Part shown: positions 1-14,952 of the stretch, in pieces
Layout: each line of letters starts with the position of its first letter
How positions within the stretch are numbered: the stretch's first letter is position 1
NCBI GenBank assembly: GCA_011390385.1
Contig: JAABSN010000078.1
Location: 1 to 15,411 of the forward strand
Length of the DNA: 15,411 nucleotides
Origin: Thioalkalivibrio nitratireducens
GTDB lineage: Bacteria > Pseudomonadota > Gammaproteobacteria > Ectothiorhodospirales > Ectothiorhodospiraceae
Direction: 5' to 3'
Translations under genes and position numbers: made by a program
The notes under the pieces: model-generated
The model's database searches: none
Seen by the model: the letters and a program-made list of their open reading frames with translations, nothing else
What the model was told of the DNA's origin: nothing

Positions 1-335
1 TGTCCCTCCGGGTTCTGCGGCCTGGACTAAGGTCCAAATCTTCGGCCAGCAACGCGCAAGGCGACCGTTCCGGCCTCCACGAATCCTTGTCGGCCGTGGA
101 GGGCGGTTCTCACTGTCGCCGCAGCCTGTACCGGATGAACGCTCCGGCAGGGTGGCCATGAGCGCAGCGAATTGTGCCGATCGAGGCCCGGGAGCCCGGA
201 GGCCAGACGGGCGTGGTGTCGGCGCGGTTCGGTTTCGCCTCGCGGTACCCTGCGGGTTGGACCCTGAAACGGGTCATGCAAGGCATGGGCTGGAGAGCCC
301 GGAAAGCGGGATTGCCCGCTCATGGTGCATACCGT
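1..335. other. Upstream intergenic region, no supported gene
   Basis: No open frame here looks like a real protein: candidates on both strands are rich in Arg, Pro and Gly, as expected from random GC-rich frames. Two small hairpins stand in tandem, GGGCT-ggag-AGCCC at 287-300 and AGCGGG-attg-CCCGCT at 305-320. Neither is followed by a T-run. They could end a gene lying left of the window or be incidental. I see no tRNA, insertion sequence or recognisable gene fragment. Confidence 0.4.
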
Positions 336-352
336 TGCACTGCATGCGTGCG
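336..352 (+). promoter_or_regulatory. Candidate NtrC-type enhancer site
   Basis: The dyad TGCAC-N7-GTGCG differs in one base from the enteric NtrC pattern TGCAC-N7-GTGCA. Further half-sites lie beside it: GGTGCA at 324-329, the palindrome GTGCGCAC at 348-355 and TTGCACCA at 365-372. The dyad centre is about 110 bp upstream of the start expected from the sigma-54 promoter at 427-442, a usual enhancer distance. A nitrogen-scavenging operon is a sensible NtrC target. The motif match is seen directly; binding by NtrC is inference. Confidence 0.5.
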
Positions 353-426
353 CACCGTCGGTATTTGCACCAGGTTCTCCGGAACAGAGAAACCGCAAGC
401 ATTTGAAAAGAAGGGGGTTGCGATTC

Positions 427-442
427 TGGCAAGAGATTTGCA
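427..442 (+). promoter_or_regulatory. Sigma-54 (RpoN) promoter, -24/-12
   Basis: TGGCAAGAGATTTGCA matches the sigma-54 consensus TGGCACGNNNNTTGCW at every defined position but one, and has the required GG-N10-GC spacing (GG 428-429, GC 440-441). The expected transcription start is near 453. That gives a leader of roughly 235 nt containing the whole riboswitch. With the NtrC-like dyad upstream, this points to induction under nitrogen limitation. I saw no equally good sigma-70 promoter, but did not scan exhaustively. Confidence 0.65.
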
Positions 443-514
443 TTGCCCTGTTCAGGCATGGGGTGCGCGGGGTTCCCACAGGAATCCGCAACCTCACCCA
501 GCAGCGCTGCACCA

Positions 515-626
515 ATGGGCGACTAGGGTTCCGGTCCGCTTCGGCGGATGACTGGTCCGAGAGTTGCCGACCTCTCCGGGGTTCTCGGGACGGGGTTACA
601 CGGCGGGACAAAAGCCCGGGAGATCA
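515..626 (+). ncRNA. Guanidine-I riboswitch aptamer (ykkC)
   Basis: The conserved blocks of the ykkC / guanidine-I aptamer occur in order: CTAGGGTTCCG at 523-533, ACTGGTCCGAGAG at 551-563, and a 3' block from 598 to 623 beginning ACACGGCGGGACAAAAGCCC and ending GGGAGA. Variable stem sequence lies between them. This class binds guanidinium and is known as a genetic ON switch, often in front of carboxylase operons and guanidine exporters. It sits 62 nt upstream of the first transporter gene. Its presence is the strongest sign that the operon handles guanidine rather than urea. The outer edges are approximate because the P1 stem was not folded. Confidence 0.93.
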
Positions 627-648
627 ACGGAAGTCCGTCGCTCTCCCG
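617..648 (+). promoter_or_regulatory. Putative riboswitch expression-platform hairpin
   Basis: CGGGAGA (617-623), the conserved 3' end of the aptamer, is an exact reverse complement of TCTCCCG (642-648). Between them ACGG/CCGT (627-638) forms an inner stem. Forming this hairpin would break the aptamer's 3' block, so the two folds are mutually exclusive, as expected of an ON switch. No T-run follows, so a classic intrinsic terminator is not evident; weak, Rho-assisted or translational control is possible. This is inferred from complementarity only. Confidence 0.55.
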
Positions 649-674
649 TGCCTTGTCCGTTACCGGTAACCACA

Positions 675-687
675 AGAGGATCGCCTC
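675..687 (+). promoter_or_regulatory. Ribosome binding site in a small hairpin
   Basis: AGAGGA (675-680) lies 7 nt before the ATG at 688 and fixes that start. GAGG (676-679) can pair with CCTC (684-687) around an ATCG loop, which could hide the site in the mRNA. Just upstream, 659-670 is a perfect 12-nt palindrome, GTTACCGGTAAC. Whether either structure takes part in riboswitch control is unknown. Confidence 0.35.
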
Positions 688-1779
688 ATGAACCCGTTTC
701 ACTTTGCCGTTCGACGTCTCCCCCTGAAACTCCTGATGCTCGTCGTGCTGTCCGGCGTGATCGCCGCTACCGGCACCGCGCAGGCTCAGCAACGCGACAG
801 CTTTCGCATCGCCTGGAGCATCTACGTCGGGTGGATGCCCTGGGGCTTCGGTGCCGAGTCGGGCATCGTCGACAAATGGGCCGAAAAGTACGGCATCGAC
901 ATCGAAATCGTGCAGATCAACGATTACATCGAGTCGATCAACCTCTACACGGCTGGCGGCTTCGACGGCGTGAGCGCGACCAATATGGACGCGCTGACCA
1001 TTCCCGCGGCGGGCGGCGTGGATACCACCGCGCTGATCGTCGGCGACTTCTCTGACGGCAACGATGGGCTGATTCTGAAGGATTCCGCCAGGCTCGAGGA
1101 TGTGCGCGGCAGAAACGTGCACTTGGTGGAATTGTCCGTTTCGCATTACCTGTTGGCCCGGGCACTCGAATCGGTGGACATGTCCGAGCGCGATATCCGT
1201 GTCGTGAATACGTCGGATGCGGATATCGTCGCCGCTTTCGGTTCGAGCGACGTCGATGCGGTCGTCACCTGGAATCCGCAGCTTGGCGAGATCCGTGCGC
1301 GCGACGATGCGACCGTGGTGTTCGATTCCAGCCAGATCCCGGGCGAGATCATGGACCTGCTGGTGGTGAACACGGCCGTGCTCGAGGCCAACCCGGCGCT
1401 CGGCAAGGCGCTGACTGGAGCCTGGTACGAGATCATGGACGTGATGCGCGGTGATGACGAAGCCGGACGTGCCGCACGAGCGTCGATGGGCGAAGCCGGC
1501 GGTACCGATCTCGAAGGCTACGAGGCGCAACTTGCCTCCACGCGCATGTTCTACGACGCCGCAGGCGCGGTCGAATTCGTGACTGGCACCGGCCCGATCG
1601 AAACGATGGAGAAAGTCCGCCAGTTCGCGTTCGAACATGGCCTGCTCGGTGAGCGCGCGCCCAGCCCGGACTTCGTCGGTATCGAGTTCACCGACGGCTC
1701 GATCCTCGGCAGCAGCGACAACGTGCGCTTCCGTTTCAACGCGGACTACATGCAGATGGCGGCGGACGGCAAGCTCTGA
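688..1779 (+). CDS. Guanidine/urea-type ABC transporter substrate-binding protein
   Basis: 363 aa periplasmic binding protein of the NitT/TauT class, of the kind found next to urea/guanidine carboxylase genes. Residues 1-33 are a Sec signal peptide: RR and K near the N terminus, a hydrophobic core LLMLVVLSGVIAA, and an AQA cleavage site before QQR. The mature part opens with FRIAWSIYVGWMPWGF, typical of this group, and the length fits the family. The ATG at 688 has a good ribosome site. It is the first gene after the guanidine-I riboswitch, so it most likely captures guanidinium; in databases it would be called a putative urea-binding protein. Substrate assignment is inference from context. 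The next gene starts 141 nt downstream, a longer gap than elsewhere within the transporter. Confidence 0.9.
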   Translation: MNPFHFAVRRLPLKLLMLVVLSGVIAATGTAQAQQRDSFRIAWSIYVGWMPWGFGAESGIVDKWAEKYGIDIEIVQINDYIESINLYTAGGFDGVSATNMDALTIPAAGGVDTTALIVGDFSDGNDGLILKDSARLEDVRGRNVHLVELSVSHYLLARALESVDMSERDIRVVNTSDADIVAAFGSSDVDAVVTWNPQLGEIRARDDATVVFDSSQIPGEIMDLLVVNTAVLEANPALGKALTGAWYEIMDVMRGDDEAGRAARASMGEAGGTDLEGYEAQLASTRMFYDAAGAVEFVTGTGPIETMEKVRQFAFEHGLLGERAPSPDFVGIEFTDGSILGSSDNVRFRFNADYMQMAADGKL

Positions 1780-1920
1780 TCCGTTGAAGCTCGCAACTGC
1801 CGAAGACGCCACGATGAACCCGACCCGGAAAGCACGCGTTGCTCCTGGCCGATGCCTTTCGGCAGATGACGCTGCGCTCTTGCGCCCTACCCGGTTGCCT
1901 TCGGCGTCGGCAGCGTCGGC

Positions 1921-2739
1921 ATGAAACGTTTCATCAACCAGCGTCCGCACCGCGCGGTGGGATATTTGCTCGGGCTGCTCCCGTTCGTGCTGCTGCTGCT
2001 CGCTTACATGGCGGCATCGGCGGCGCGGCTGGCGGAGAATCCGAATGACCCACTGCTCCCTTCGCTGGGGACAATGCTCGACACCTTCTGGAGGCTGGCC
2101 ACCGAGCCCAGCCGGCGCACGGGCGAGTTGATACTCTGGGTGGACACTGCGGCGAGTCTGACCAGGCTCGGTCTGGGCGTGGCCATCAGCATGGCCATGG
2201 GGCTCGTTGTCGGCATATTGGCCGGGCTGATCCCTTACGCTGGGCGCACCCTGTCGCCGTTGATCACCGCGGTGGCGATGATTCCGCCGCTGGCGGTGTT
2301 GCCGATCCTGTTCATCGCGTTTGGGGTCGGTGAGCTCGCAAAGGTGGTGCTGATCGTTTTCGGGATCGCCCCGTTCATCATTCGCGACGTGCAGCAGCGC
2401 GTGTCGGAGTTGCCCACGGAACAGTTGATCAAGGCGCAGACATTGGGCGCATCGAGCTGGCTGATCATCCTGCGTGTGGTGCTGCCGCAGGTGTTCCCGC
2501 GTCTTCTGGACGCCACGCGGCTTGCACTTGGAGCCGCATGGCTGTTCCTGATCGCATCGGAGGCGATCGCTGCCACCGAGGGGCTGGGCTATCGGATTTT
2601 CCTGGTTCGCCGATTCCTGGATATGGCCACGATTCTGCCCTACGTGTTCTGGATCACGCTGCTCGCTTTTCTTGCCGACTTCTTGCTGCGGATGGTGAAC
2701 CGGCTCCTTTTTCCCTGGTACGGGTGGCAGAGAAACTGA
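1921..2739 (+). CDS. ABC transporter permease (NitT/TauT type)
   Basis: 272 aa inner-membrane permease. Hydrophobic segments are visible at about residues 15-35, 82-105, 112-155 (probably two), 200-216 and 237-258. The cytoplasmic EAA loop that contacts the ATPase is at about 167-188 (EQLIKAQTLGASSWLIILRV). This fits the permease family used for nitrate, taurine and carboxylase-linked uptake. An in-frame TGA at 1867-1869 and the lack of other start codons leave ATG 1921 as the start, though no strong ribosome site precedes it. The 141-nt gap upstream contains a GCCGA/TCGGC hairpin (1848-1863) and nothing else I recognise. The stop codon overlaps the ATPase start by one base, so the two are translationally coupled. 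Confidence 0.9.
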   Translation: MKRFINQRPHRAVGYLLGLLPFVLLLLAYMAASAARLAENPNDPLLPSLGTMLDTFWRLATEPSRRTGELILWVDTAASLTRLGLGVAISMAMGLVVGILAGLIPYAGRTLSPLITAVAMIPPLAVLPILFIAFGVGELAKVVLIVFGIAPFIIRDVQQRVSELPTEQLIKAQTLGASSWLIILRVVLPQVFPRLLDATRLALGAAWLFLIASEAIAATEGLGYRIFLVRRFLDMATILPYVFWITLLAFLADFLLRMVNRLLFPWYGWQRN

Positions 2740-3533
2740 TGGCCACGGTGACATTGAAGAACGTCTGGAAGACCTACGGTGCCGACATCGTGCTCGAGCA
2801 CGTGAACCTGCACGTGAAATCCGGTGAATTCGTCACCATCGTGGGCGCCTCCGGCTGCGGCAAGACCACCTTTCTGCGCATGCTGCTGGGTGAGGAGACG
2901 CCGAGCCGGGGCGAACTGCTGATGGATGGCATGCCCATGCCGAGCGAGCCCGGGCCCGACCGTGGCGTAGTGTTTCAGAAGTACTCGGTATTTCCGCACC
3001 TGAACGCCTTGAAGAATGTGCTCGTTGCGGAGGAGTTCGGTCGCGCCCGCCTGACCGGGCATCTTTTCGGCACTGCTCGGCACAAGGCAAGTGCAAAGGC
3101 CGTCGAAATGCTGGAAGCCGTGGGTCTCGGGCACGCATCGAAAAAGTATCCGCATGAACTTTCCGGTGGCATGCAGCAGCGTCTCGCAATCGCGCAGGCA
3201 CTGATGAAGGATCCGAGGATCCTGCTGCTCGACGAACCCTTCGGCGCGCTGGACCCGGGGATCCGCAAGGACATGCACGCCCTGATCCTGGACCTCTGGA
3301 AACGCCGCGGTCTGACGATCTTCATGGTCACCCACGACCTGAAGGAGGGCTTTTTTCTGGGCACACGCCTGCTGGTGTTCGACAAGGTGCGCCATGATCC
3401 GCAGGCACCCAATGCCTACGGCGCGAACATCACCTATGACATCCCCGTAGGGCGCACCGAGCCCGAACTGCTGGCCGAGATCCGTGACCAGACGGGCCTT
3501 CCACTTACCGTTGAGACGGATCGCCATGGGTAG
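2739..3533 (+). CDS. ABC transporter ATP-binding protein (NitT/TauT type)
   Basis: 264 aa ATPase that powers import through the permease just upstream. All nucleotide-binding motifs are intact: Walker A GASGCGKTT at residues 36-44, Q-loop VFQK near 79-82, signature LSGGMQQR at 141-148, Walker B ILLLDEP with D165-E166, and the switch histidine in MVTHD (H199). The reading frame is open farther upstream, but ATG 2739 overlaps the permease stop in a TGATG junction and gives the family-typical N terminus MATVTLKNVWKTYG. After the stop, GGCC-gaaaa-GGCC (3534-3546) could form a short hairpin, and 141 nt separate this gene from the next. Confidence 0.93.
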   Translation: MATVTLKNVWKTYGADIVLEHVNLHVKSGEFVTIVGASGCGKTTFLRMLLGEETPSRGELLMDGMPMPSEPGPDRGVVFQKYSVFPHLNALKNVLVAEEFGRARLTGHLFGTARHKASAKAVEMLEAVGLGHASKKYPHELSGGMQQRLAIAQALMKDPRILLLDEPFGALDPGIRKDMHALILDLWKRRGLTIFMVTHDLKEGFFLGTRLLVFDKVRHDPQAPNAYGANITYDIPVGRTEPELLAEIRDQTGLPLTVETDRHG

Positions 3534-3674
3534 GGCCGAAAAGGCCACAGACCATCATCCGCCGTTCAACAACTGCGATGATGCCAGAGCCCCGAGGTCG
3601 GCAGCCCGCCTTTTCGAGGGACTGTCGCCGTTGGTGGTGGCCAAGGACAACGTGAACACTGAGGAGGGCAAACG

Positions 3675-4412
3675 ATGAGCAATCCGGACGCGACCCCGGA
3701 CGCGGTTGTGCACCGGGACACGGTTCCCGGAGGCCGCTATTGGTCGATGGTGGTCCGGTGCGGCTATACGCTGCGCCTGGTTGATCGCGACGGCAAGGCA
3801 AACGTATCGGCGCTGCTTTACAACCCGCAGAACCTGCTCGAGCGCTACAACATGGCCGATACCCTGAAGGGCCAGCACACGTCAAAGCTGACCCGCGGCA
3901 ACATGCTGTACTCGGACATGGGTCGGGTGATGCTGTCGATCGTCGAGGACACCGCGGGCTGGCACGACACCATCGGCGGCATCACCCGCGATGCCGACAT
4001 CGTGCGCAAGTACGGCGAGCACCGTTACCAGGAGTACCGCAACGACTTCTACCGCAGCGGCCGCGAACTGTTCCTGATCGAGTTGGCCAAGTGGGGCCTG
4101 GGCAAGCGCGATCTGGTCGCCAACCTGAATTTCTTCAGCAAGGTCTACGCAGGGGCGGATGGGGTACTGCACTTCGACGCCAGCCACAGCCAACCCGGCG
4201 ATTACATCGACCTGCGGGCGGAGATGGACACGCTGGTCGTGCTGAACACCGCGCCGCACCCGATGGACCCGGCGCCGGCCTACGCGCCGGGTGCCGTGGA
4301 CCTTGCGGTCTACCGCTCGCCACCGGTCACCGAGGATGATGACTGCGTGAATTTTCGCCCGGAGAACGCGCGCGCCTTTGCCAACACCGCGATCTACAAC
4401 TGCCAGGGGTGA
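3675..4412 (+). CDS. Carboxyguanidine deiminase subunit (DUF1989, urea carboxylase-associated)
   Basis: 245 aa member of DUF1989, one of the tandem pair known as urea carboxylase-associated proteins (UAAP1/UAAP2). The pair has been shown to act as carboxyguanidine deiminase (CgdAB), converting carboxyguanidine to allophanate and ammonia. Family hallmarks are [21 protein letters not shown] near the N terminus (in part), [30 protein letters not shown] (around residue 95-103) and [17 protein letters not shown]. The longer length (about 245 aa) suggests the UAAP2-type member; I do not assign the A or B letter. GAGGAG (3661-3666) precedes the ATG. Its partner begins 4 nt after its stop. It shares the core blocks of the partner, so the pair arose by duplication. 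Confidence 0.88.
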
Positions 4413-4416
4413 GGAC

Positions 4417-5076
4417 ATGAGTGGAATCAATCTTGTGGAAAGCCCGCTGGACCCGGCCGACGCCGTGTCCCGGGAAGTCGTTCCAGCCGGCGAGCCCTGG
4501 CTGAAGGCGCTGCGCAGGGGCCAGACCCTGCGTATCCTCGATCTCGAAGGCAACCAGGCCGTGGACACGCTGTTCTACAGCCTGGAACACCCCACCGTGG
4601 AGCGCTACAGCGCGATCGACACCGTGCAGGCGCAGGGCAACGTGTACCTGACCACCGGAACGCAGCTGATGTCGAACGAAGGCAACGTGATGCTGACCAT
4701 CACCGCCGACACCTGCGGCCGCCACGACACCCTTGGCGGGGCCTGCGCGGCAGAGTCGAACCAGGTGCGCTACGGCCTCGACAAGAAGCCGATGCACTCC
4801 TGCCGGGACAGCTTCCTGCGCGCGCTGGCCGACAGCGACTACGGTCTCGGCAAGCGCGACCTGGCGAGCAACATCAATTTCTTCATGAACGTGCCACTGA
4901 CCCCCGAAGGCGGCCTGACCTTCGAGGACGGCATCTCCGACGCCGGCAAGTACGTGGAGATGCGCGCCGAGATGGACGTGCTGGTGCTGGTCTCGAACTG
5001 CCCGCAGCTGAACAACCCCTGCAATGCCTACAACCCGACGCCGGTCGAGATGATCATCTGGGATCCGTCGGAGTAA
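4417..5076 (+). CDS. Carboxyguanidine deiminase subunit (DUF1989, second member)
   Basis: 219 aa DUF1989 protein, partner of the preceding gene and probably the UAAP1-type member. Conserved blocks are [84 protein letters not shown] and [17 protein letters not shown]. The conserved Cys/His sites (CGRH and the [10 protein letters not shown] region) are candidate metal or catalytic ligands, by inference. The strong ribosome site GGGGTGAGGA (4406-4415) overlaps the stop of the upstream gene, and ATG 4417 follows at once. The open frame reaches back to 4378 but those residues are not family-like. Expected role: with its partner, hydrolysis of carboxyguanidine to allophanate. Confidence 0.88.
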
Positions 5077-5080
5077 ACAC

Positions 5081-5158
5081 AGCCACGGAAGGACACGGAA
5101 ATCACGGAAGAAAACGGATTCAACTCTTGTTCAGTGTCTGTCCGTGCTTTCCGTGGCT
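5081..5158. repeat. Inverted repeat of CACGGAA units, MITE-like hairpin
   Basis: The left arm at 5081-5099 (AGCCACGGAAGGACACGGA) pairs with 5141-5158 (TCCGTGCTTTCCGTGGCT): 10 perfect pairs, a G-T pair, one more pair, a bulged A, then 6 pairs. The left side also holds three tandem CACGGAA units about 9 bp apart (from 5085, 5094 and 5103). Such CACGGAAG-rich hairpins look like dispersed palindromic repeats of some gammaproteobacteria. It lies 4 bp after the deiminase stop, inside the operon, so it may affect mRNA stability or partial termination. From 5159 to 5318 there is only GC-rich sequence without a recognisable gene. Confidence 0.7.
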
Positions 5159-5318
5159 CGCCTTTTCATTTTCAGGGTGGTCGTGGCCATGAGAATGAGT
5201 GAGGGCGACACACCCGCCACGAAGGCGGCAACCCCGGGGACGACCCCGGCGGCACGCGTTCACCGCGGGACGGCCCGCGGACCCTGGGGAAATGGGCCCC
5301 GCCGGGAGCGTTGAAGAT

Positions 5319-8300
5319 ATGTTCGACAAGGTATTGATCGCGAATCGCGGCGCCATCGCGTGCCGCATCATCCGCACCCTGAAGCGGATGGGGGTCGGCT
5401 CGGTGGCGGTGTATTCGGAGGCGGACCGCCACTCGCTGCACGTGCGCGAGGCGGACGAGGCAGTGCTGATCGGCCCGGCATCTCCCGCGCAGTCCTACCT
5501 CGACGGTGAACACATCCTGCAGGTGGCGCGGGAAACCGGGGCGGGAGCGATCCACCCGGGATACGGGTTCCTTTCCGAGAACGCGGACTTTGCGCAGCGC
5601 TGCGAAGCGACAGGCATCGCCTTCGCCGGCCCGAAGCCGCAGCAGATCCGCGATTTCGGACTGAAGCACCGCGCCCGGGAACTGGCCCGTGCCGCCGGCT
5701 TGCCGATGCTGCCGGGTACCGAACTGCTGGAAAATCCCGATCATGCGGTCGCCGAGGCCCGCACCATCGGCTTCCCCGTCATGCTCAAGAGCACCGCCGG
5801 TGGTGGCGGCATCGGCATGCAACTCTGCCGCGACGAGGCCGACCTGCGCGAGTCCTGGGACTCGGTGCAGCGCCTGGCGCAGAACAACTTCGCGAATGCC
5901 GGCGTGTTCCTGGAGAAGTACGTCGAGCACGCACGCCACATCGAGGTACAGATCTTTGGCGACGGTCACGGCGCGGTGATCGCACTGGGCGAACGCGACT
6001 GTTCCTTGCAACGGCGCAACCAGAAGGTGGTCGAGGAAGCACCCGCGCCCAACCTTCCCGAAGCCGCTCGCGCCCGGCTGCTGGCCGATTCGGAGGCCCT
6101 CGGCAAGCGGGTCGGCTATCGCGGCGCAGGCACTGTCGAATACCTCTACGACGCCGAGACCGGCGCGTTCTATTTCCTGGAAGTGAACACCCGGCTGCAG
6201 GTCGAGCATGGCGTTACCGAAGAGGTCACCGGCGTCGATCTCGTCGCGTGGATGCTGCTGGCGGCGGCCGGCGAACTGCCGTCCCTGGAGACCCTGCGCC
6301 CGGGGCCCGCGACCGGCCACGCCATCCAGGCGCGAATCTATGCCGAGGACCCGGGCAAGCACTTCCAGCCCTCCGCCGGCCTGCTGACCGAGGCCCGGTT
6401 CCCGGAAGACGTTCGGGTGGATACCTGGGTCGAGCGCGGCAGCGAGATCTCGCCCTTCTACGACCCGATGGTCGCCAAGCTGATCGTGCACGCAGGCGAC
6501 CGCGATGCCGCCTGCGCCCGTCTGCAGGCGGCATTGGCAGCCACCGACCTGCAGGGGCTGGAGACCAACCTGCGCTATCTGCGGCAGATTGCCTCCGACC
6601 CGGTGTTTCTTCGCGGGGAACAGACGACACGCACCCTGGGGGGCCTCGAGTACCACGCTGACAGCATCGACGTGCTTGATCCGGGCACCCAGACCATGCT
6701 GCAGGACTGGCCGGGCCGGGTAGGCCATTGGGACATCGGCGTGCCGCCGTCGGGCCCGATGGACAGCCTCGCGTTCAGGCTGGGCAACCGGCTGCTCGGC
6801 AACCCCGAGGGTGCCGCCGGGCTGGAGCTGACCGTCACCGGCCCGACCCTGCGGTTCAACACCGATGCCGTGATCGCCCTGGCCGGCGCACGGATGTCGG
6901 CGCACCTGGACGGCGAACCCGTCGCGTACTGGACGGCGCTGGCGGTGCGCCGTGGACAGGTGCTGGAACTGGGTAGTATCCATGGGGCCGGAGTGCGCAG
7001 CTACCTGCTGCTGCGTGGTGGATTCGACGCGCCGACGGTAATGGGCAGCCGCGCGACGTTCACGCTGGGGCGCATCGGCGGCCACGGAGGACGGGTGCTC
7101 CGGCCGGGCGATGTGCTGCATCTGGCTGGTGAACCTGCCGGCGACACCGATGTCCTCGCGCCCGAGGCGATTCCGGAATACCGCCACGAATGGCGGCTGC
7201 GGACCGTGTACGGGCCGCACGGTGCGCCGGATTTTTTCACCCGGCAGGACATCGAGACCTTCTTCGCCACCGACTGGGAAGTGCACTACAACTCCAGCCG
7301 CACCGGGGTGCGCCTGATCGGACCGCGCCCGCAGTGGGCCCGAACCGACGGTGGCGAGGCCGGCCTGCATCCGTCGAACATTCACGACAACGCCTACGCG
7401 GTCGGCACCGTGGACTTCACCGGCGACATGCCGGTGATCCTGGGTCCGGATGGCCCCAGCCTGGGTGGCTTCGTGTGTCCTGCGACGGTAATCGAGGCGG
7501 ATCTCTGGAAGCTCGGACAACTGCGACCCGGCGACACCCTGCGCTTCGAAGCGGTGGGCCTGGCCGCGGCGGGCCGGCTGGCGCTGGAGCTCGACGCGGC
7601 AGTCGAAGCGCTTGCCGCGCTGCCGGACGCCGGCGTCGAGCCTGCAGCGCCGGGTGAGATCGCGGCCAGCAGCCCGGTACTGCGCGAACTCCCGGCAGGC
7701 GGCGTTGTGCAGGGTGCCAGCGCGGATGTTCCCGGCGGCGGCCCGGTACTGGAGCCTGTAGGCCACCCGGTCGGGGTGGCCTACAGGCCCGCCGGTGACC
7801 GCTATCTCCTGGTCGAGTACGGTCCAATGGTGCTGGACCTCGCGCTGCGTTTCCGGGTTCAGGCGCTGCTCGACTGGCTGACCGGGCAGCGGATCCCGGG
7901 CATCCGGGAAATGACTCCGGGCGTGCGCAGCCTGCAACTCCATTACGAACCCAGGCAGTTGCCGCTGGCGCGGCTCCTCGACCTGCTGGAACAGGCCGAG
8001 GCGGAACTGCAGGACCTGTCCGAGGCCGAGATGCCCTCGCGCATCGTCCACCTGCCGCTTGCATGGGATGACAGCCAGACCCGGCTCGCGACGCGCAAGT
8101 ACATGCAGTCGGTACGTCCCGACGCCCCCTGGTGCCCGCGCAACATCGAGTTCATCCGGCGCATCAACGGGTTGGACAGCGAAGACGAGGTCAAGCGGAT
8201 CGTGCTCGAGGCCTCCTACCTGGTGATGGGCCTGGGCGACGTGTACCTGTCAGCACCGGTGGCCACGCCAGTGGACCCGCGCCATCGACTGGTCACGACC

Positions 8301-8987
8301 AAGTACAACCCGGCGCGCACCTGGACTCCGGAAAACGCGGTCGGCATCGGCGGCGCCTACATGTGTATCTACGGGATGGAGGGGCCGGGCGGCTACCAGT
8401 TCGTGGGCCGCACCCTGCCGATCTGGAATCGCTACAAGCGGACCCCTGAATTCGAGCAGCCGTGGCTGCTGCGCTTTTTCGACCAGATCCGTTTTTACGA
8501 AGTCTCCGAGCCGGAACTGCTTTCGATGCGCGAGGCTTTTCCGCATGGCGGACTGCGCCTGGAGATCGAGGAATCGCGTTTCTCGCTGGCCGGTTACAAC
8601 CGCTTCCTGAGCGAGAACCGCGAAAGCATCGAGGCCTTTCAACAATCTCAGCGTTACGCATTCGAGGCCGAGCGCCAGCGCTGGGTCGAGGCCGGTCAGG
8701 CCGATTACGTGGCGGAGCCCGACGCACCGATTGCGGGTTCCGATGATCTCGACCTGGCCGAAGGCGAGCAGGCGGTCTCGGGGCATGTGGCGGGCAGTCT
8801 GTGGGCGCTGGAGGTGAACGAGGGCGACCGCGTCGAGGCCGGACAGACACTGCTGGTGCTGGAATCGATGAAGATGGAGATCCCGTTGACCGCACGCGCC
8901 GCGGGCACCGTGGTCCGGGTGTTGTGCCGTGAAGGGGCCTCGGTGACGCCGGGCCAGGCATTGCTGGTGATCCGTGCCGAAGGCTGA
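5319..8987 (+). CDS. uca: Guanidine carboxylase (urea carboxylase family, biotin-dependent)
   Basis: 1222 aa multidomain biotin enzyme. The biotin carboxylase domain spans about residues 1-450, opening [17 protein letters not shown], with the ATP-grasp glycine loop GGGGIGM near 161-167 and [15 protein letters not shown] near 288-302. A carboxyltransferase domain of the AHS2 (KipA-like) type runs from about 460, starting [20 protein letters not shown], followed by an AHS1 (KipI-like) region around 817-1020. The biotin carrier domain is C-terminal, with the biotinyl lysine K1185 in ESMKME. It carboxylates its substrate with ATP and bicarbonate. Riboswitch and DUF1989 neighbours indicate guanidine, giving carboxyguanidine; urea may be a poor substrate. 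The frame is open from 5199, but upstream residues are Arg/Pro-rich and unlike the family, so ATG 5319 is chosen. There is no fused allophanate hydrolase, unlike yeast urea amidolyase. Confidence 0.92.
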   Translation: [1222 protein letters not shown]

Positions 8988-9010
8988 GTGGGGCGCCCCA
9001 CTCAGCCTTC
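8979..9010. terminator. Perfect 32-nt palindrome over the carboxylase stop codon
   Basis: GAAGGCTGAGTGGGGC (8979-8994) is followed directly by its exact reverse complement (8995-9010), giving 16-bp arms with no spacer. The carboxylase TGA (8985-8987) lies in the left arm. No T-run follows on either strand, so a standard intrinsic terminator is not proven. It could cause partial termination, protect the upstream mRNA, or be a dimeric protein site. The next gene starts 43 nt later. Confidence 0.55.
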
Positions 9011-9052
9011 CCCCGCGAAGCCGAGCGGCCGGGATTATCGAGTGAGGAAACG

Positions 9053-10876
9053 ATGATGCGTGACATGACGATCGAGGGCTTGCTGGACGGTTACCGCGCG
9101 GGGAGACACACGGTGCGCGAGGTGATTGCGGATGCGCTGGCCGAGATTCGCCGGGCGGATTCGCGGAACGTATGGATCACGGTGCTGGACGACGCGACGC
9201 TGGAGCCCTATCTCGCCGGGCTCGAAGGGATCGACCCGGCTGCGCTGCCGCTGTACGGCGTGCCGTTCGCGCTGAAAGACAACATCGACCTCTCGGGCGT
9301 GCCGACGACTGCGGGTTGCCCGGAGTATGCCTATGTACCCGAGTCCTCTGCTTTCGCGGTGCAGCGGCTGATCGACGCCGGAGCCGTGCCGCTGGGCAAG
9401 ACCAACCTGGACCAGTTCGCGACCGGGCTGGTCGGAGCCCGCTCGCCCTATGGTGCCTGCAGGAACGCGTTCAATCCCGAATATGTGTCCGGCGGTTCCA
9501 GTTCGGGTTCCGCGGTGGCGGTTGCGCTCGGGCAGGTCGGTTTCGCATTGGGGACCGATACCGCCGGTTCCGGCCGGGTTCCCGCCGCATTCAACAATCT
9601 GGTGGGTCTGAAACCGACGAGAGGGTTGCTCAGCGCTGACGGTGTCGTGCCGGCCTGTCGGACGCTGGACACCCTGTCGATCTTCGCATTGTCGGTGCCG
9701 GACGCGGCAAGGGTGCTGGACGCAGTGGCCGTTTACGATCCCGACGATCCCTATGCCCGATCGGACCAGGCGCCATCGCTCGGTCTGGCCGGTATTCCCG
9801 AAACCGGTTTTCGCTTCGGCGTTCCTGCTGCCGGGCAGCTCGAGTTCTTCGGTGATCGCGAGTACGAGGCTGAATTTCTCGCGAGCGTGGAACGGGTCGA
9901 GGCGCTGGGCGGCGAGCGGGTCGAAGTCGATTTCGAGCCCTTTCTCGCGGCTGCGCGTCTGCTTTACGAGGGCCCGTGGGTCGCCGAGCGCTATGCGGCC
10001 ATCCGCGGATTCCTGGATGCTCGGCCCGACGCCCTGTTTCCCGTGACACGGGAGATCATTGCCGGTGGACGCATGCCCCTTGCGGTCGATGCCTTCGACG
10101 CGCAATACCGCCTGCAGGCGCTGCGCCGCCGTACCGAGGTCGTCTGGAACACGGTGGACCTGATGCTGACACCGACCACCGGAACGATTCCCGCGATCGC
10201 CGACGTGGAAGCAGAACCGGTGCAGGTAAACAGCGATCTCGGTTATTACACCAATTTCATGAACCTTCTGGACCTCTGTGCGGTGGCAGTGCCTGCGGGC
10301 TTTCGTGCGGACGGCCTGCCGTTCGGCGTTACGCTGTTCGCGCCAGCCTTCCGCGATCGCGACCTGCTCCCGATCGCTGACCGACTGCACCGGGCGGCGG
10401 ATCTACCCATCGGGGCGACGGGACTGCGGTTGCCGAAACCGGGCGCACAGTCTTGCGCATCGCCGCACTCGATCATGGTCGCTGTGTGCGGTGCGCATAT
10501 GTCGGGGTTGCCATTGAACCACCAGTTGACCGACCGTGGCGCCCGCTTCCTCCGGACCACCAGCACGGCTCCCGAATACCGATTCTACGCCCTGTCCGGC
10601 GGCCCGCCGGAGCGTCCCGGGTTGGTACGCGTGCGTTCCGGTGGGGCATCGGTCGAAGTCGAGGTCTGGGCCGTTCCTGCGGACCGGTTCGGGTCCTTCG
10701 TCGCAGGCATTCCCTCGCCACTGGGGATTGGTCGAGTGCGACTGGCGGACGGAAGCGAAGCAGCGGGCTTCCTCTGCGAGAGCGTCGCGGTGGAGGGCGC
10801 CACGGACGTCACGGATCACGCTTCCTGGCGGAAGTATCTGGCCGAGAGACAAGAACAACGCCATCGCGGGGGTTGA
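9053..10876 (+). CDS. atzF: Allophanate hydrolase
   Basis: 607 aa amidase-signature enzyme that hydrolyses allophanate to ammonia and CO2, the last step of the pathway. The Ser-cisSer-Lys triad is complete: K75 in ALKDNI, cis-Ser S149 in GGSSSGSA, and nucleophile S173 in DTAGSGR. The spacings (24 and 98 residues) equal those I recall for Pseudomonas AtzF (K91, S165, S189). After about residue 470 there is the family's separate C-terminal domain, with LPLNHQL, YRFYAL and LGIGRVRLADG, so this is a full-length two-domain enzyme. Ribosome site GTGAGGAAA (9042-9050) precedes ATG 9053; ATG 9056 or 9062 are equally possible starts. It follows the carboxylase by 65 nt and closes the operon. Just after it, GGGCC/GGCCC near 10887-10906 may form a weak hairpin. 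Confidence 0.95.
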   Translation: MMRDMTIEGLLDGYRAGRHTVREVIADALAEIRRADSRNVWITVLDDATLEPYLAGLEGIDPAALPLYGVPFALKDNIDLSGVPTTAGCPEYAYVPESSAFAVQRLIDAGAVPLGKTNLDQFATGLVGARSPYGACRNAFNPEYVSGGSSSGSAVAVALGQVGFALGTDTAGSGRVPAAFNNLVGLKPTRGLLSADGVVPACRTLDTLSIFALSVPDAARVLDAVAVYDPDDPYARSDQAPSLGLAGIPETGFRFGVPAAGQLEFFGDREYEAEFLASVERVEALGGERVEVDFEPFLAAARLLYEGPWVAERYAAIRGFLDARPDALFPVTREIIAGGRMPLAVDAFDAQYRLQALRRRTEVVWNTVDLMLTPTTGTIPAIADVEAEPVQVNSDLGYYTNFMNLLDLCAVAVPAGFRADGLPFGVTLFAPAFRDRDLLPIADRLHRAADLPIGATGLRLPKPGAQSCASPHSIMVAVCGAHMSGLPLNHQLTDRGARFLRTTSTAPEYRFYALSGGPPERPGLVRVRSGGASVEVEVWAVPADRFGSFVAGIPSPLGIGRVRLADGSEAAGFLCESVAVEGATDVTDHASWRKYLAERQEQRHRGG

Positions 10877-11082
10877 GCGCTCTACTGGGCCCGTCGGATG
10901 GCCCGGTATGAAACAGGGAAGTGAGGGGATCAGTTGATCGAGCGCCGGCGGTTGCGGCTTCATCGTGCGCTCGCCACAGGCTGCCGCGTTCGCAAAAAGG
11001 CCTGACCAACCGCCGTACCGGTAACCGGATTGAAATGATTTCCTGCAATGCTTCGCATTTCCACTGCTTGCGGACTCTCCGT

Positions 11083-11613
11083 ATGGATATCGCCATTGCC
11101 ATTGTCGCTGGAGTCACAGCTCTGTTTCTCCTGAACCTGCTCAGCTACCGGATACTGAAGCCTCGCATTATCCGGGAGCGCCAGAATTGGGATTTGAATA
11201 TCTGCTGCGGCGATACCGACGGCGGTGGCGTGAATGCGGACATCGTGGCGCAGGATGTGGCGAACTTCGTGCTGATACCGGATATTTACCGACTACCGTT
11301 CAAGGATGGCGAGTTTGAGCATGTGCTCTGCTCGCACACCATCGAACACGTTGATGACCCGGACGCTTTCTGGGCGGAACTGAACCGCGTTGGCAAGGAC
11401 GTCACTCTGGTCCTGCCTCCATTGTGGGATCTCGCCGCCGCGCTCAATATTTTCGAGCACAAATGGATCTTCCTGTCATGGCGCAAACGGCATCATGCGC
11501 TGCCGCGCCATTTCGAATTGCCCTGGGCACAGCGTTACCAGAAGCGTTTCGGGCAAGTCGTTGCGAACAGCATGATGCAGCGCTTGCGCGAGCTGGCAGC
11601 ATCGCGTACCTGA
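11083..11613 (+). CDS. Membrane-anchored class I methyltransferase-like protein
   Basis: About 176 aa if started at ATG 11083. One N-terminal membrane helix (residues 2-24, IAIAIVAGVTALFLLNLL) is followed by a short Rossmann-type methyltransferase fold: motif I-like WDLNICCGD, then DIYRLPFKDGEFEHVLCSHTIEHVDDP, the usual Methyltransf_11 post-I region, and VTLVLPP. The glycine loop is odd, with CCG where GCG/GTG is usual. The frame is open to 10921, but those residues are not protein-like; ATG 11035 is another possible start and no good ribosome site decides. It has lower GC and a different codon style from the operon before it, so it is probably a separate unit. Substrate and pathway are unknown. 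From 10877 to 11082 I see no other gene. Confidence 0.6.
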   Translation: MDIAIAIVAGVTALFLLNLLSYRILKPRIIRERQNWDLNICCGDTDGGGVNADIVAQDVANFVLIPDIYRLPFKDGEFEHVLCSHTIEHVDDPDAFWAELNRVGKDVTLVLPPLWDLAAALNIFEHKWIFLSWRKRHHALPRHFELPWAQRYQKRFGQVVANSMMQRLRELAASRT

Positions 11614-11633
11614 ACGGCCGTACCCGCCAGGGC

Positions 11634-12300
11634 CTATCGTCGCCGAAGGAATCGGTTTTCCCAGCAACTGATCGTTGCCAGGCCCGCGGCGCGGACATTC
11701 AGTGCCAGCCAGCCCGACGAAGCCGTTCACGATCGCGTGCGCCGGCACACCAGAAAGGTCATCGGGTTGCCACGGTTCGAGCCAGTCCACCATGCGCTCG
11801 ACCGTGTATTCGTCGGTCACGGCACTGATCTCGAACACGACCACCAGCACCAGCGCGAACACGGCCAGGGTATCGACAAAGCTCCAGCGGGGATGCAGGA
11901 ACAACTCGTCGCCCCAGCGTTGCCAGCGCGGCTGTGTGTTGTTGTCACCCGGCCGAGTCACCGCCTCGTAGAGCAGCGCGGCGTGATGATGGCGGTCGGC
12001 GCGAATCTCGTCTCCGAGGGTCGCGGCAGGGCTTTCGCGGCTACGCTGCACGCGGCGAGCAATTCAGCGAACCGCGCGAGGAAATGGCTGCGCAGTTCCT
12101 GGTACAAGTCCGTCGGTCTCCGCGAGCTGGAGTATTAGTAACGGCGTTGGCACTTGGAACGACTCTGTGATTTCCGGATCTTCCGCGATCGCGACGATGT
12201 GCGGGGAATACCCCGCGGTGTCAGAGTAGTTGGGTCTGCCGTAGCGCGCGGGTAGGATGACCGAATCGCCCCGGGAATTGCGTGGGCTGGTTGGTTTAAG
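11634..12300 (-). pseudogene. Frameshifted remnant of an unknown membrane protein gene
   Basis: Coding-like sequence runs right to left in four pieces in shifting frames: 12300-12112 (ending LLILQLAETD), about 12107-12051 (LYQELRSHFLARFAELLAA), about 12048-11713 (SRESPAATL ... AIVNGFVG) and 11711-11634 (WLALNVRAAGLATISCWENR, then RFLRRR and stop). Each piece has strong GC at third positions and reads as ordinary protein, unlike the other frames. The third piece contains a clear membrane helix, VDTLAVFALVLVVVFEI. Three single-step frame changes separate the pieces. No start codon lies in the first piece; its frame continues past a TGA at 12301-12303 into more protein-like sequence. I do not recognise the family. 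Decay is likelier than assembly error because intact genes flank it, but errors cannot be excluded. Confidence 0.55.
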
Positions 12301-12403
12301 TCACGCGGCCATTGCCGACGTACTGGCGAGTTGCCGGTAGTAGTTTGCCTCGGCTTCCGCAGGGGGGATAACGCGAGCCCGCTGACAAATGAGGAGATGA
12401 TTG

Positions 12404-12847
12404 ATGTCGAGACGACGAAAGCTGTTCCTGGCCGCCAGTCTGGCTGCGCTGGCCTACGGTGCCATGGTGCACGCGGCCGAGCCGGAGATCACCGTTTACA
12501 AGAGCCCCACCTGTGGCTGCTGCACGAAATGGGTGGACCACTTGGAGGAGAGCGGGCTCGAGGTCGAGAGTGTCGATGTGCGCGATCTCAACCGCATCAA
12601 GGCCATGGCGGGGGTGAGTCCGGAACTCGCCTCCTGCCACACGGCCATTGTGGACGGCTACGTGATCGAAGGGCACGTCCCTGCCGATGACATCAGACGA
12701 CTGCTGACGGAGCGGCCAGAGGTCAGGGGGTTGACGGTGCCAGGCATGCCCCATGGTTCGCCAGGCATGGAGACGGGGCGCGAAGATCCCTACCAGGTAC
12801 TGACCTTCGATGCCGAGGGCAATACGCGAGTGTTCGCTCGTTACTGA
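12404..12847 (+). CDS. Secreted DUF411 metal-binding-type protein
   Basis: 147 aa DUF411 family protein, often found in copper resistance clusters. Residues 1-25 form a Sec signal peptide (MSRRRKLFLAASLAALAYG...HAAE). The mature part starts with a thioredoxin-like strand and the cysteine motif SPTCGCCTKW (about 33-42), followed by HLEESGLEVESVDV. It has a further SCHTAIVDGYVIEGHVPADDI block and the C-terminal VPGMPHGSPGME typical of the family. The Cys and Met residues are candidate metal ligands. GAGGAG (12391-12396) places the start at ATG 12404; a TTG at 12401 is less likely. Neighbouring copZ-like remnant and multicopper oxidase support a periplasmic copper role. The biochemical function of DUF411 is not firmly established, to my knowledge. 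Confidence 0.85.
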   Translation: MSRRRKLFLAASLAALAYGAMVHAAEPEITVYKSPTCGCCTKWVDHLEESGLEVESVDVRDLNRIKAMAGVSPELASCHTAIVDGYVIEGHVPADDIRRLLTERPEVRGLTVPGMPHGSPGMETGREDPYQVLTFDAEGNTRVFARY

Positions 12848-12860
12848 CGGGGTTTTACAC

Positions 12861-12907
12861 CCCATCGCCGCACGTGAATCCGGGACAGATTCGCATGCGG
12901 CGGTGGG
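12861..12907. terminator. Large 20-bp stem-loop between convergent genes
   Basis: The arm at 12861-12880 pairs with 12888-12907 around a 7-nt loop (CGGGACA), with one C-A mismatch and two G-T pairs. It begins 13 bp after the DUF411 stop and 39 bp beyond the 3' end of the opposing copZ-like pseudogene. A smaller GGGGT/ACCCC hairpin stands just before it (about 12849-12863). There is no clear T-run. It may serve as a bidirectional terminator or be a dispersed palindromic repeat. Confidence 0.5.
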
Positions 12908-12945
12908 CAGCAGTCAGCCCGCATAAACGGTCCGGCGCGCTCTTT

Positions 12946-13146
12946 TCAGAGGGTCTCTGCCTCGTACCTTTCTTCCTTGATCGTAGCGAGCAGGGCCGCC
13001 GTATCTGCGTTTCACGTAACCACGGCCTGTTGGTTCTAGAGGTTGACGTCGGCCGATTCGACGCCCGGCACCTTTTGCAACGCTTGGGTCACGGCGGTAA
13101 CGCAGTGCATGCATGTCATGCCGGTCATTCGGATTCGCGTCTCCAC
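12946..13146 (-). pseudogene. copZ: copZ-like copper chaperone (HMA domain), two in-frame stops
   Basis: A complete 66-codon heavy-metal-associated domain gene is readable in one frame. It starts at GTG 13146, preceded by GGGAGA with 6-nt spacing, and ends at TGA 12946-12948. It shows the metal site MTGMTCMHC (CxxC), then VTQALQKVPGVESADVNL, NQQAVVT, and NADTAALLATIKEERYEAETL in the rest. Two stops interrupt it: TAG at 13036-13038, where the family usually has Glu (GAG), and TGA at 13012-13014, where Gly (GGA) is usual. Each is one base change away. The intact copy would bind Cu(I) in the cytoplasm. The first 36 residues keep the CxxC, so a short truncated product is conceivable. An automatic caller may extend the open part back to 13284, joining it to the regulator remnant. 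Confidence 0.8.
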
Positions 13147-13188
13147 CGCCGTTCTCCCATGTTTTCCAGGTAGCAGGGAAGATTTCGC

Positions 13189-13290
13189 ACCCACGCGATC
13201 GGCCACCAGACCCAACGAGTAGTCGGTTTCACTGAGGCCTTTCCTGAGTTCGCTGCCCGTCTCCCGCGCGCCTTCGACGCTCAAAACCTT
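13189..13290 (-). pseudogene. Remnant of CopR/CusR-type response regulator N terminus
   Basis: On the - strand, about 34 codons read KVLSVEGARETGSELRKG followed by LSETDYSLGLVADRVG. This matches residue by residue the start of heavy-metal response regulators, whose usual pattern is KVLVVEDE-KTGEYLRKGL, then SE-GY-VDL-ADGVDG. The acidic DE pair that helps bind magnesium is replaced by GA, and the rest of the receiver and DNA-binding domain is missing. No ATG precedes it. It sits in the same frame as, and about 43 bp upstream of, the copZ-like pseudogene. It is a fragment, probably left by deletion or recombination; it cannot work as a regulator. Confidence 0.6.
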
Positions 13291-13443
13291 GTTGCATGCC
13301 TCCCATCCCGGGTTGATCGCCAGATTGCCATACCAGCCGCTACTGGTTCAGATTGCAGGGTAGTCATCTCGCGGTCAGGTCCAGGACAGGCAACTGGACT
13401 ATGGTTGAGGCCAGCTTCTGTAGCCACGTTTGGAGAAATCGAA
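13291..13443. other. Intergenic region before the multicopper oxidase
   Basis: No gene is supported here. I looked for a CueR/MerR-type spaced dyad and for a CopR box of direct repeats and saw no convincing match. The only clear signal is GGAGAA at 13432-13437, the ribosome site of the following oxidase. Confidence 0.4.
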
Positions 13444-14952
13444 ATGGATCGACGTTATTTTCTCAAGGGCAGCCTTGCTGCTGCCACCACAGCAGCCGTT
13501 AGTGTTGCAACGATGAGGGCGGCCTGGGCGCGCACGAGTGCTCGTCCGGCCCTACCGATGCCCAGCCTGCTCGATCTGACGCAAAGTGGCCGTCTTGACC
13601 TGGTGGCACAACAAGGCACGCATCGCTTTGGTCAAGACAGCCAGCCCTCCTCGACCTTTGGCTACAATCAATCCTATCTGGGGCCGATCGTGCGCGCCAA
13701 TCAAGGGCAGGAGATTGCGGCTCGAGTGCGAAACGATCTCCCGGAACCGCTCGCCACCCATTGGCATGGATTGCTTGTCCCCGGCGAAGTGGACGGTGGC
13801 CCGCATCTCGCGATCGATCCGGGCGAAGCATGGAAGCCCGTCCTGTTCATCGACCAACCGCCAGCAACCGCATGGTTTCATGCCCATACCCATCCAAATA
13901 CGGCCAGACAGGTTTATTCCGGGCTGGCCGGTGTTTTCCAGATCAGCGATGGACAAGACGGCGAGCGGGGCCTGCCGCACGAACACGGGGTCGACGATCT
14001 CACTCTGGTCTTGCAGGACCGGCGTTTTGATGATTTCGGGCGCCTTTCCTACCGCCTGGGCATGTTTGACCGGATGCAAGGTTTCCGTGGAGATCACATC
14101 GTGGTGAACGGCGCCCCGAACCCGCGAACCAGTATCCCCCGTTCGATCGTTCGACTTCGGCTTTTGAACGGCTCTAACGCCCGCATTTATCACCTTCGCT
14201 TCGATGATGGCCGACCGATGCATGTCATGGCCTCCGATTCCGGCTACTGGCCAGAACCGGTCCCAACCAACGAGCTGCGTATGGCCCCCGGCGAACGTTT
14301 CGAGGTGCTGGTTGACTTCAGTGACGGGGGTGACGTCAGCCTGCTGACTGGCCCCGATCAAAACCGGGGAGGCCCGGGCATGATGGGCATGATGGGCAAC
14401 ATGCGCTCATTCATTACGGGTCTCGTAGACGACGATCTGCCGATTCTTTCCTTTCATCCCGAGGGCCGCAAGGGTGCCATCGATCGCATGCCCGAGAAGA
14501 TCGATGACGATCTCGATCAGCTTCCAACGAATTTCGCTCGCAAGCGAGAATTTTCTCTGGACATGATGCTCGGTGGCATGCCGATGGGGCGAGGCATGAT
14601 GGGCGGAGACGGTGCTGGCCCAGCCATGGGAATCAACGGCCGGCCGTTCGACATGCGGCACATCAACGAGCAGGTATCTCTCGGCACCACTGAGCAATGG
14701 GTCATCGAGAGTGACATGCTCATGCACCCGTTCCATATCCATGGTGTGCGATTCCGGGTCCTGGCCGACGAGACCGGGCAAGCTCCGCGCCTGGAAAACC
14801 GTGGCTACAAGGACACCGTGCTCGTTGATGGTCGTGCCGAGGTCGCCGTGGAATTCACGCAGCCGGCCGCCCCGGAGACGCCGTTCATGTACCACTGTCA
14901 CATCCTCGAGCACGAAGATGCCGGGATGATGGGTCAATTCGGAGTTTCCTGA
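13444..14952 (+). CDS. Tat-exported multicopper oxidase (CueO-like)
   Basis: 502 aa multicopper oxidase. A Tat signal opens the protein (DRRYFLKGSLAAATTAA), with likely cleavage after RAAWA. All copper-binding motifs are intact: HWH at residues 106-108, HAH at 146-148, HPFHIH at 428-433 and HCHILEHEDAGM at 484-495, giving T1 ligands H428, C485, H490 and axial M495. Two methionine-rich loops, about 309-323 (GPGMMGMMGNM) and 373-404 (MMLGGMPMGRGMMGG), resemble the CueO segment that binds Cu(I). Likely role: periplasmic oxidation of Cu(I) to Cu(II) with reduction of oxygen, as copper detoxification. GGAGAA lies 6 nt before ATG 13444; the frame extends to 13405 but would displace the Tat motif. 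The gene stands alone on this strand, next to decayed copper genes. Confidence 0.92.
   Translation: MDRRYFLKGSLAAATTAAVSVATMRAAWARTSARPALPMPSLLDLTQSGRLDLVAQQGTHRFGQDSQPSSTFGYNQSYLGPIVRANQGQEIAARVRNDLPEPLATHWHGLLVPGEVDGGPHLAIDPGEAWKPVLFIDQPPATAWFHAHTHPNTARQVYSGLAGVFQISDGQDGERGLPHEHGVDDLTLVLQDRRFDDFGRLSYRLGMFDRMQGFRGDHIVVNGAPNPRTSIPRSIVRLRLLNGSNARIYHLRFDDGRPMHVMASDSGYWPEPVPTNELRMAPGERFEVLVDFSDGGDVSLLTGPDQNRGGPGMMGMMGNMRSFITGLVDDDLPILSFHPEGRKGAIDRMPEKIDDDLDQLPTNFARKREFSLDMMLGGMPMGRGMMGGDGAGPAMGINGRPFDMRHINEQVSLGTTEQWVIESDMLMHPFHIHGVRFRVLADETGQAPRLENRGYKDTVLVDGRAEVAVEFTQPAAPETPFMYHCHILEHEDAGMMGQFGVS

Follow-up and report, generated by a model that had tools for sequence, protein, structure and literature searches.

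In Klebsiella, transcription of nasF starts at an Ntr-controlled sigma-54 promoter and then meets a leader terminator, which is overcome by the specific substrate. The nitrate is read by a protein, NasR. To our knowledge, this is the nearest logic to the one proposed below for an operon that carries guanidine riboswitches.

Other described systems, each represented here by excerpts of the paper cited, share genes or RNA elements with this operon. V. boliviensis combines Guanidine-I and Guanidine-II riboswitches in one carboxylase operon (PMC12508155). As in the DNA described here, Guanidine-I lies at the operon start, Guanidine-II lies before the carboxylase, and pathway and transporter genes are present; however, NtrC and RpoN do not occur in the main text (PMC12508155). 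In Burkholderia cenocepacia H111, an ntrC mutant displays a reduction in urea carboxylase (log2 -6.0), and the same list includes related transporter genes (PMC5491218). Among the top 150 NtrC-affected genes of that study, 95% are also sigma-54-regulated, and the urea carboxylase operon is not named there in the available excerpt (PMC5491218). The H111 operon thus resembles the present one in having urea-carboxylase-type genes under NtrC, but the paper does not mention a riboswitch (PMC5491218). Likewise, computed sigma-54 regulons contain COG3665 with 102 predicted genes, 59% of them named urea carboxylase, but that study does not mention guanidine (PMC12316311). For an Ectopseudomonas operon with a Guanidine-I riboswitch, the authors propose a LysR regulator (PMC13296017).

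The individual parts have been described before, as has the control by NtrC of an operon of the urea-carboxylase type. A first-pass annotation of the locus knew of no well-described case of sigma-54 and guanidine-I control stacked in this way. The stack was indeed not found among the matches listed from the open-access literature, a scope that excludes the two likeliest places, Schneider et al. (2020) and Sinn et al. (2021); on the other hand, NtrC control and predicted sigma-54 control of urea-carboxylase-type genes have been published. Within the available portions of fourteen papers (PMC12186494, PMC12508155, PMC9549626, PMC9788540, PMC5491218, PMC13296017, PMC3616915, PMC4842269, PMC12403871, PMC12316311, PMC7011215, PMC12452182, PMC8443478, and PMC8467165), sigma-54 or NtrC is nowhere joined with a guanidine riboswitch.

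The DNA analysed here (the window) is a stretch of 15,411 nucleotides of Thioalkalivibrio nitratireducens (contig JAABSN010000078.1, positions 1 to 15,411). The genes of its operon (688-10876) are those for a transporter, UAAP1/2, a urea/guanidine carboxylase, and an allophanate hydrolase:

688..1779, + strand: substrate-binding protein (SBP) of a urea-carboxylase-linked ABC transporter (TIGR03427, 533 bits)
1921..2739, + strand: ABC permease (family-level matches, below equivalog cut-offs)
2736..3533, + strand: ABC ATPase (family-level matches, below equivalog cut-offs)
3675..4412, + strand: UAAP1 (TIGR03425)
4414..5076, + strand: UAAP2 (TIGR03424)
5232..5278, + strand: Guanidine-II riboswitch (Rfam RF01068, 40.9 bits, gathering threshold 32)
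5316..8987, + strand: urea/guanidine carboxylase (TIGR02712, 1836 bits)
9053..10876, + strand: allophanate hydrolase (TIGR02713 / PRK08186)

UAAP1 and UAAP2 are proteins that we take to be carboxyguanidine deiminase-type subunits. The name of the carboxylase model, TIGR02712, does not include guanidine; from the two guanidine riboswitches and the literature we infer that guanidine is the substrate of the enzyme, and the SBP gene probably serves guanidine uptake. The Guanidine-II element, which was unmentioned in the first-pass annotation, scores over the threshold of its covariance model with both hairpins covered (model 1-48), and its position between UAAP2 and the carboxylase gives the operon two guanidine sensors. 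The same internal arrangement is seen in several relatives. Among the seven window proteins examined, none was called mgdH/mgdL-like. On the 3' side of the operon, the translations of 12401-14952 include copper-related-looking genes, among them a DUF411-like protein and, at 13405-14952, a multicopper oxidase-like protein.

The elements that concern the control of this operon lie ahead of the SBP gene:

314..328, + strand: weaker NtrC-like site, GCCC-N7-GTGC, with one mismatch (centre at about -132)
337..351, + strand: NtrC-type dyad GCACTGCATGCGTGC, a perfect GCAC-N7-GTGC (centre 344, which is -109 from 453)
427..442, + strand: sigma-54 (-24/-12) promoter box TGGCAAGAGATTTGCA, with one mismatch to TGGCACG-N4-TTGCW
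453, + strand: predicted transcription start, 11 nt past the box end
512..624, + strand: Guanidine-I riboswitch aptamer (Rfam RF00442, 90.6 bits, gathering threshold 63)
594..671, + strand: predicted alternative hairpin (inner stem 606-658), occupying the 3' part of the aptamer, with no T-run behind it

The Guanidine-I match is full-length (model 1-107) and well above threshold, as expected from the earlier claim of a riboswitch in the leader, and 63 nt separate it from the TIGR03427 transporter gene. The sigma-54 box carries the GG and GC elements of the -24/-12 promoter with the correct spacing. In sigma-54 numbering, transcription starts 11 nt past the last base of the box, which predicts a start at 453, 59 nt ahead of the aptamer. 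The box had been annotated before with a quality of 15/16; the box stands, while that score had counted the four N positions, and over the informative positions it is 11/12. Enhancer dyads of the type GCAC-N7-GTGC, about 80-150 bp upstream, are the mark of the NtrC regulon. The predicted sites of the window comprise a perfect dyad at -109, where an NtrC-like dyad had been placed at about -110, and the weaker one at -132.

Taken by itself, the window offers little beyond chance. TGGCAAGAGATTTGCA is its sole match with at most one mismatch, where 0.15 are expected, and at least one match appears in 25 of 200 shuffles; a looser consensus search at three mismatches gave no signal in the window (20 found, 27 expected). 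The perfect dyad occurs twice in the window against an expectation of 0.58, and at least two occur in 21/200 shuffles. With these chance counts, 0.15 for the box and 0.58 for the dyad, the window by itself was rejected as proof. They are also what favours the reading that the motifs upstream of the riboswitch are a meaningless co-occurrence. However, the conservation of the motifs in relatives lifts them above chance.

Relatives were taken as the best 80 loci from a search with the substrate-binding protein, the closest among the matches listed being Thioalkalivibrio MAGs (87-90%). By a fuzzy pattern, the Guanidine-I aptamer is present in the leader of 70 of these best 80 loci, absence from the other 10 being judged by pattern match only, and a covariance model confirmed it in the five loci checked (L001-L005). 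Sixty-nine loci were usable (L053 was excluded for masked bases, and of two aptamers in L061 the second was left aside). Within 300 nt upstream of the aptamer, the sigma-54 matrix, which like the NtrC consensus was set beforehand and not fitted, scores at least 12 in 62/69 loci and at least 10 in 66/69, and in 56 of the 69 all 50 dinucleotide shuffles stay below the observed score. Aligning the window with L001-L005, the comparison across relatives that had been proposed as a check, shows that all six species retain the GG and GC of the box; TGGC and TGC are invariant, against a mean column identity of 59%. The perfect dyad is found in four of the six aligned species (the window, L001, L002, and L003). 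In the Thioalkalivibrio loci L001 and L002 it lies at -108, and L001 also has a one-mismatch dyad at a distance equivalent to window 314-328. L004 has a perfect dyad at -143, and L005 has a one-mismatch dyad at best. The rpoN and ntrC genes score over cut-off in all six relatives checked of the 80, including L001 and L002, a presence that is expected of such bacteria and is thus not discriminating. Among these six, L008 has a low box score and L020 lacks the aptamer by pattern.

Because a search that begins with close homologues is biased, an independent sample was also taken. It comprised 754 genomes, 369 belonging to the same class as a Thioalkalivibrio genome and 385 to that of a Thalassospira genome, presumably the Gammaproteobacteria and the Alphaproteobacteria, respectively. 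Guanidine-I was found in 29/369 and 31/385 genomes, amounting to 38 and 33 hits; in the second set, four hits (L145-L148) score below the family cut-off and were retained. Of the 71 hits, 68 were used (excluded were G001, identical to L001; G006, identical to L068; and G620:C347:1-102, at a contig end). A box scoring at least 12 lies within 300 nt upstream in 55/68 of these loci, compared with 8 of 1,202 background windows (0.67%), the background being 300-nt windows of downstream DNA on both strands, mostly coding and not intergenic leaders. The strict consensus TGGCAY-N5-YTGCW occurs in 25/68 loci and in none of the 1,202 windows; when one substitution is allowed and the last base is relaxed, the figures are 59/68 and 31/1,202. 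Grouping at 70% ungapped identity leaves 66 groups among the 68 upstream regions, which shows that a single sequence has not been counted repeatedly, and the strict consensus in loci this diverged argues for selection. Chance as a general statement is contradicted by the background comparison and the strict-consensus count, as well as by the unprompted dyad count and the two preferred distances of the box from the aptamer described below, and we consider it very improbable. The stack of a sigma-54 box on a Guanidine-I riboswitch is real, as the first-pass annotation had it; rather than being special to this genome, it is common in the sampled loci.

By first gene, a score of at least 12 is reached in 36/42 loci that begin with the SBP gene (3/42 score below 10), in 5/6 that begin with a UAAP gene, in 5/5 with a divergent SBP gene, in 1/5 with another transporter gene, and in 8/10 others. 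A strong box is missing in 13/68 loci, including four of the five that begin with another transporter gene. These 13 were examined for an operon-internal position, and some (for example L093, L127, L114, and L147) have a stop-to-stop frame on the same strand that ends within about 100 nt of the aptamer; because the DNA is G+C-rich, such frames carry no weight. Eleven further loci from the order of G759, outside the 68, represent 13 over-cut-off hits minus those of G759 and G006, which were already counted. Nine of them have a box scoring at least 12; L175 scores 11.7 and L177 scores 4.1.

The sample also held several loci with other gene contents. In L098, L101, L104, and L108, ureohydrolase-like proteins, perhaps guanidine hydrolases, are encoded behind Guanidine-I and sigma-54 boxes, the gene being divergent from the transporter operon in L101, L104, and L108; the L098 protein, the only one of the four scanned, matches agmatinase/arginase models below their cut-offs. 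L124 and L129 encode, by translation, TonB-dependent receptor-like proteins immediately after Guanidine-I and a sigma-54 box of full consensus; outer-membrane uptake of guanidine or a relative is a possible role of these proteins. A membrane desaturase-like protein lies behind Guanidine-I with a sigma-54 box in L117, and behind Guanidine-II in L155, L160, and L169, with a sigma-54 box in L155 and L160. The L117 protein matches PF00487 and, weakly and below cut-off, the guanitoxin arginine hydroxylase GntB, while the proteins of L155, L160, and L169 were judged by reading alone; these proteins are candidates for a hydroxylase of a guanidino compound. On contig 3 of G125 (L083/L169/L093), a Guanidine-I, a Guanidine-II, and a second Guanidine-I lie within about 7 kb on one strand.

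Guanidine-II leaders provide a control by function. In the Thioalkalivibrio-class set, Guanidine-II occurs in 26/369 genomes (29 hits), of which 20 loci were read; the other nine lie a few kb behind a same-strand Guanidine-I and were left out. None of the eight leaders of sugE-type exporters has a box scoring at least 12 (best 8.6), seven of the eight having been assigned by reading their 104-106 aa translations and one (L150) by HMM, and L162 having only 67 nt upstream. A box of this score is present in 1/8 loci with Guanidine-II before a carboxylase (L166) and in 2/3 before a desaturase-like gene (L155 and L160), and the one remaining locus has no gene in view. The sugE leaders resemble the window in their ligand and class of bacteria, but differ in lacking a strong box. 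The contrast between 55/68 Guanidine-I loci and 0/8 sugE-type leaders (Fisher p 1e-5, kinship ignored) suggests, within this small control, that the box tracks assimilation and not the ligand, and sugE leaders without a box fit a detoxification that is free of nitrogen gating.

Across 117 loci with a box scoring at least 12 and enough upstream sequence (L009 was excluded, its upstream sequence being too short), two promoter layouts can be distinguished. In the first (73/117 loci), the box stands more than 20 nt ahead of the aptamer, at 40-80 nt in 61 of the 73. In the second (44/117), it stands 3-15 nt ahead, which places the predicted start between about 5 nt before the aptamer and 8 nt inside it. 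Within the independent sample, 26 loci from the Gammaproteobacterial search and one from the Alphaproteobacterial search have the first layout, and five and 23, respectively, have the second.

Loci of the first layout are enriched in NtrC-type motifs. Their best match to TGCACC-N5-GGTGCA averages 9.07 of 12, compared with 7.45 in shuffles, and their top 6-mer is GCACCA (53/73 loci, 5.5 expected). An unprompted count of 4+4 dyads ranks GCAC-N7-GTGC first, in 13/73 loci against 0.15 expected, while permuted half-sites give a mean of 0.18 and a maximum of one locus; allowing one mismatch, the dyad is found in 51/73 (permuted halves: mean 5.3, maximum 17). Sites scoring at least 9/12 cluster mainly at -86 to -143, and their centres suggest a periodicity of about 10.5-11 bp (the best among nine periods tested on 45 sites, with no correction for kinship), with a lower value when 42 distinct sites are used. 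For loci of the second layout, the match to the NtrC consensus hardly exceeds that of shuffles (8.0 vs 7.5 of 12), and the perfect GCAC-N7-GTGC occurs in 3/44 loci, with permuted halves reaching up to 3. A different dyad, TGCC-N9-GGCA, occurs there in 8/44 loci, permuted halves giving none; it lies at -85 to -141 in L034, L123, L126, L136, L137, L138, L142, and L143. As it fits the same 17-bp frame, it could be an NtrC variant.

The scarcity of the NtrC consensus in most of these 44 loci, together with the TGCC-N9-GGCA dyad, is one reason to consider that the sigma-54 promoter, though real, answers to another enhancer-binding protein and perhaps to another cue, so that the first key would not be nitrogen starvation as such. 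A gene for a sigma-54-interacting regulator about 3 kb from the Caballeronia operon and the many NtrC-model matches in the proteins of relatives point the same way. On the other hand, the window dyad is the classical GCAC-N7-GTGC, the sites of the 73 loci sit mainly at -86 to -143, and the shared 17-bp frame leaves room for NtrC at the variant dyad as well. The three plasmid records examined all combine Guanidine-I, a sigma-54 box (scores 16.7-18.5), and a perfect GCAC-N7-GTGC, at -107 in Rhizobium johnstonii 3841 (pRL9), -115 in Pantoea vagans C9-1 (pPag3), and -120 in Caballeronia sp. NK8 (pNK83); the first two speak against another activator, as does the NtrC dependence of a similar operon in the excerpted B. 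cenocepacia data (PMC5491218). Another activator is accordingly an unlikely explanation. NtrC is well supported as the predicted activator where the promoter stands further upstream, mostly in Gammaproteobacteria; for most Alphaproteobacterial loci, NtrC is a less certain candidate.

Start-site data are available for Magnetospirillum gryphiswaldense, where, in the excerpt of the published table, a Guanidine-I aptamer occupies 119,571-119,680 (- strand) and a start at 119,678, the third base of the aptamer, is recorded in the oxic sample and not in the anoxic one (PMC9549626). Genome G895 is probably this organism: the aptamer lengths agree with the excerpted table (PMC9549626), while the coordinates of the Guanidine-II and glycine riboswitches do not match, nor does one orientation, and G895 gives two Guanidine-II hits versus one in the table. 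In G895, TGGCACGGGCTTTGCG ends 10 nt before the aptamer, which predicts a start at base 1, and the published start is 2 nt beyond this sigma-54 prediction. A weak sigma-70-like site, TTGGTG-17-TATACA, was seen by eye to overlap the box, so the G895 start is consistent with sigma-54, but not decisive.

This overlapping site fits another reading: the box would be genuine, yet most of the expression would come from a sigma-70 promoter, possibly together with another regulator such as one of the LysR type. The operon would then respond chiefly to guanidine, and nitrogen would modify this response only to a minor degree. The oxic-only start at base 3 of the aptamer (PMC9549626), the trace levels of three of the proteins in V. 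boliviensis on ammonium (PMC12508155), and the LysR regulator proposed for the Ectopseudomonas operon (PMC13296017), all as given in the excerpts, are compatible with this reading. However, a sigma-70 pattern scan of window positions 1-1200 returned no match, which is a weak test given that shuffles average 0.3, and strict sigma-54 consensus sequences in 25/68 diverged loci against 0/1,202 windows argue for selection on the box. Dominance by sigma-70 is therefore judged improbable, slightly more so than a different activator.

With regard to the output of the leader, the RNA of 590-690 is predicted to fold at -47.3 kcal/mol (z -4.25) into a hairpin that captures the 3' strand of the aptamer, which is what a switch would show. 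The terminator pattern found no U-tract terminator in the window leader, and an intrinsic terminator as the output is thus unsupported in the window. For this reason three options are kept, and the leader may act through Rho-independent termination, Rho-dependent termination, or translation. Across loci, an anti-aptamer arm within one edit is present in 17/73 with the box well upstream (0.98 expected) and in 1/44 whose box adjoins the aptamer (0.70 expected); a CCCGGG-plus-T-run terminator is present in 5/73 of the former versus 0/44 of the latter. In a crude scan, which extends pairs too far and is not relied on, the best anti-aptamer pairing is followed by a T-run in 1/139 loci and has a z below -3 in 15/139, with -4.7 for the window.

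Taken together, the operon is quite probably governed by a two-key switch, in which transcription is initiated through Ntr and sigma-54 and its passage beyond the leader depends on guanidine. What we infer in this switch is that NtrC binds, that rpoN is required, that the two inputs combine by AND logic, and that the leader acts by termination. Under nitrogen limitation, phosphorylated NtrC would bind the dyads about 109 and 132 bp upstream and activate sigma-54 RNA polymerase at 427-442, with transcription starting near 453. The nascent leader would then fold the Guanidine-I aptamer. Upon binding guanidine, the aptamer would keep its 3' strand, allowing elongation into the transporter and carboxylase genes; with no guanidine, the 606-658 hairpin would take that strand, and transcription would stop or the mRNA would remain silent. 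The Guanidine-II element before the carboxylase could provide a third, local adjustment.

With somewhat less assurance, the same wiring can be proposed more widely. In Gamma- and Alphaproteobacteria, genes for guanidine assimilation would stand behind both Ntr/sigma-54 and a guanidine riboswitch, as an AND gate, and sugE export behind a riboswitch alone; in many Alphaproteobacteria, transcription would start at the first bases of the aptamer, making the sensor the 5' end of the RNA. The assimilation genes so wired would include those for uptake, the carboxylase, the ureohydrolase-type guanidine hydrolase, and perhaps the TonB receptors and the desaturase-like enzyme.

If this is true, the guanidine riboswitches of assimilation operons do not act alone, and uptake and breakdown occur only under nitrogen lack, while export is usable at any time; from the upstream promoter one could then tell genes for which free guanidine is food from those for which it is poison. 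It would also mean that, where guanidine is compared with ammonium as the only source of nitrogen, two inputs may be confounded, and the V. boliviensis comparison of this kind may have changed both keys at once. Compared with Klebsiella nasF, the window is predicted to follow the same two-key logic, with guanidine read by an RNA aptamer and not by a protein, and would represent a natural RNA-only counterpart of the nasF-type switch.
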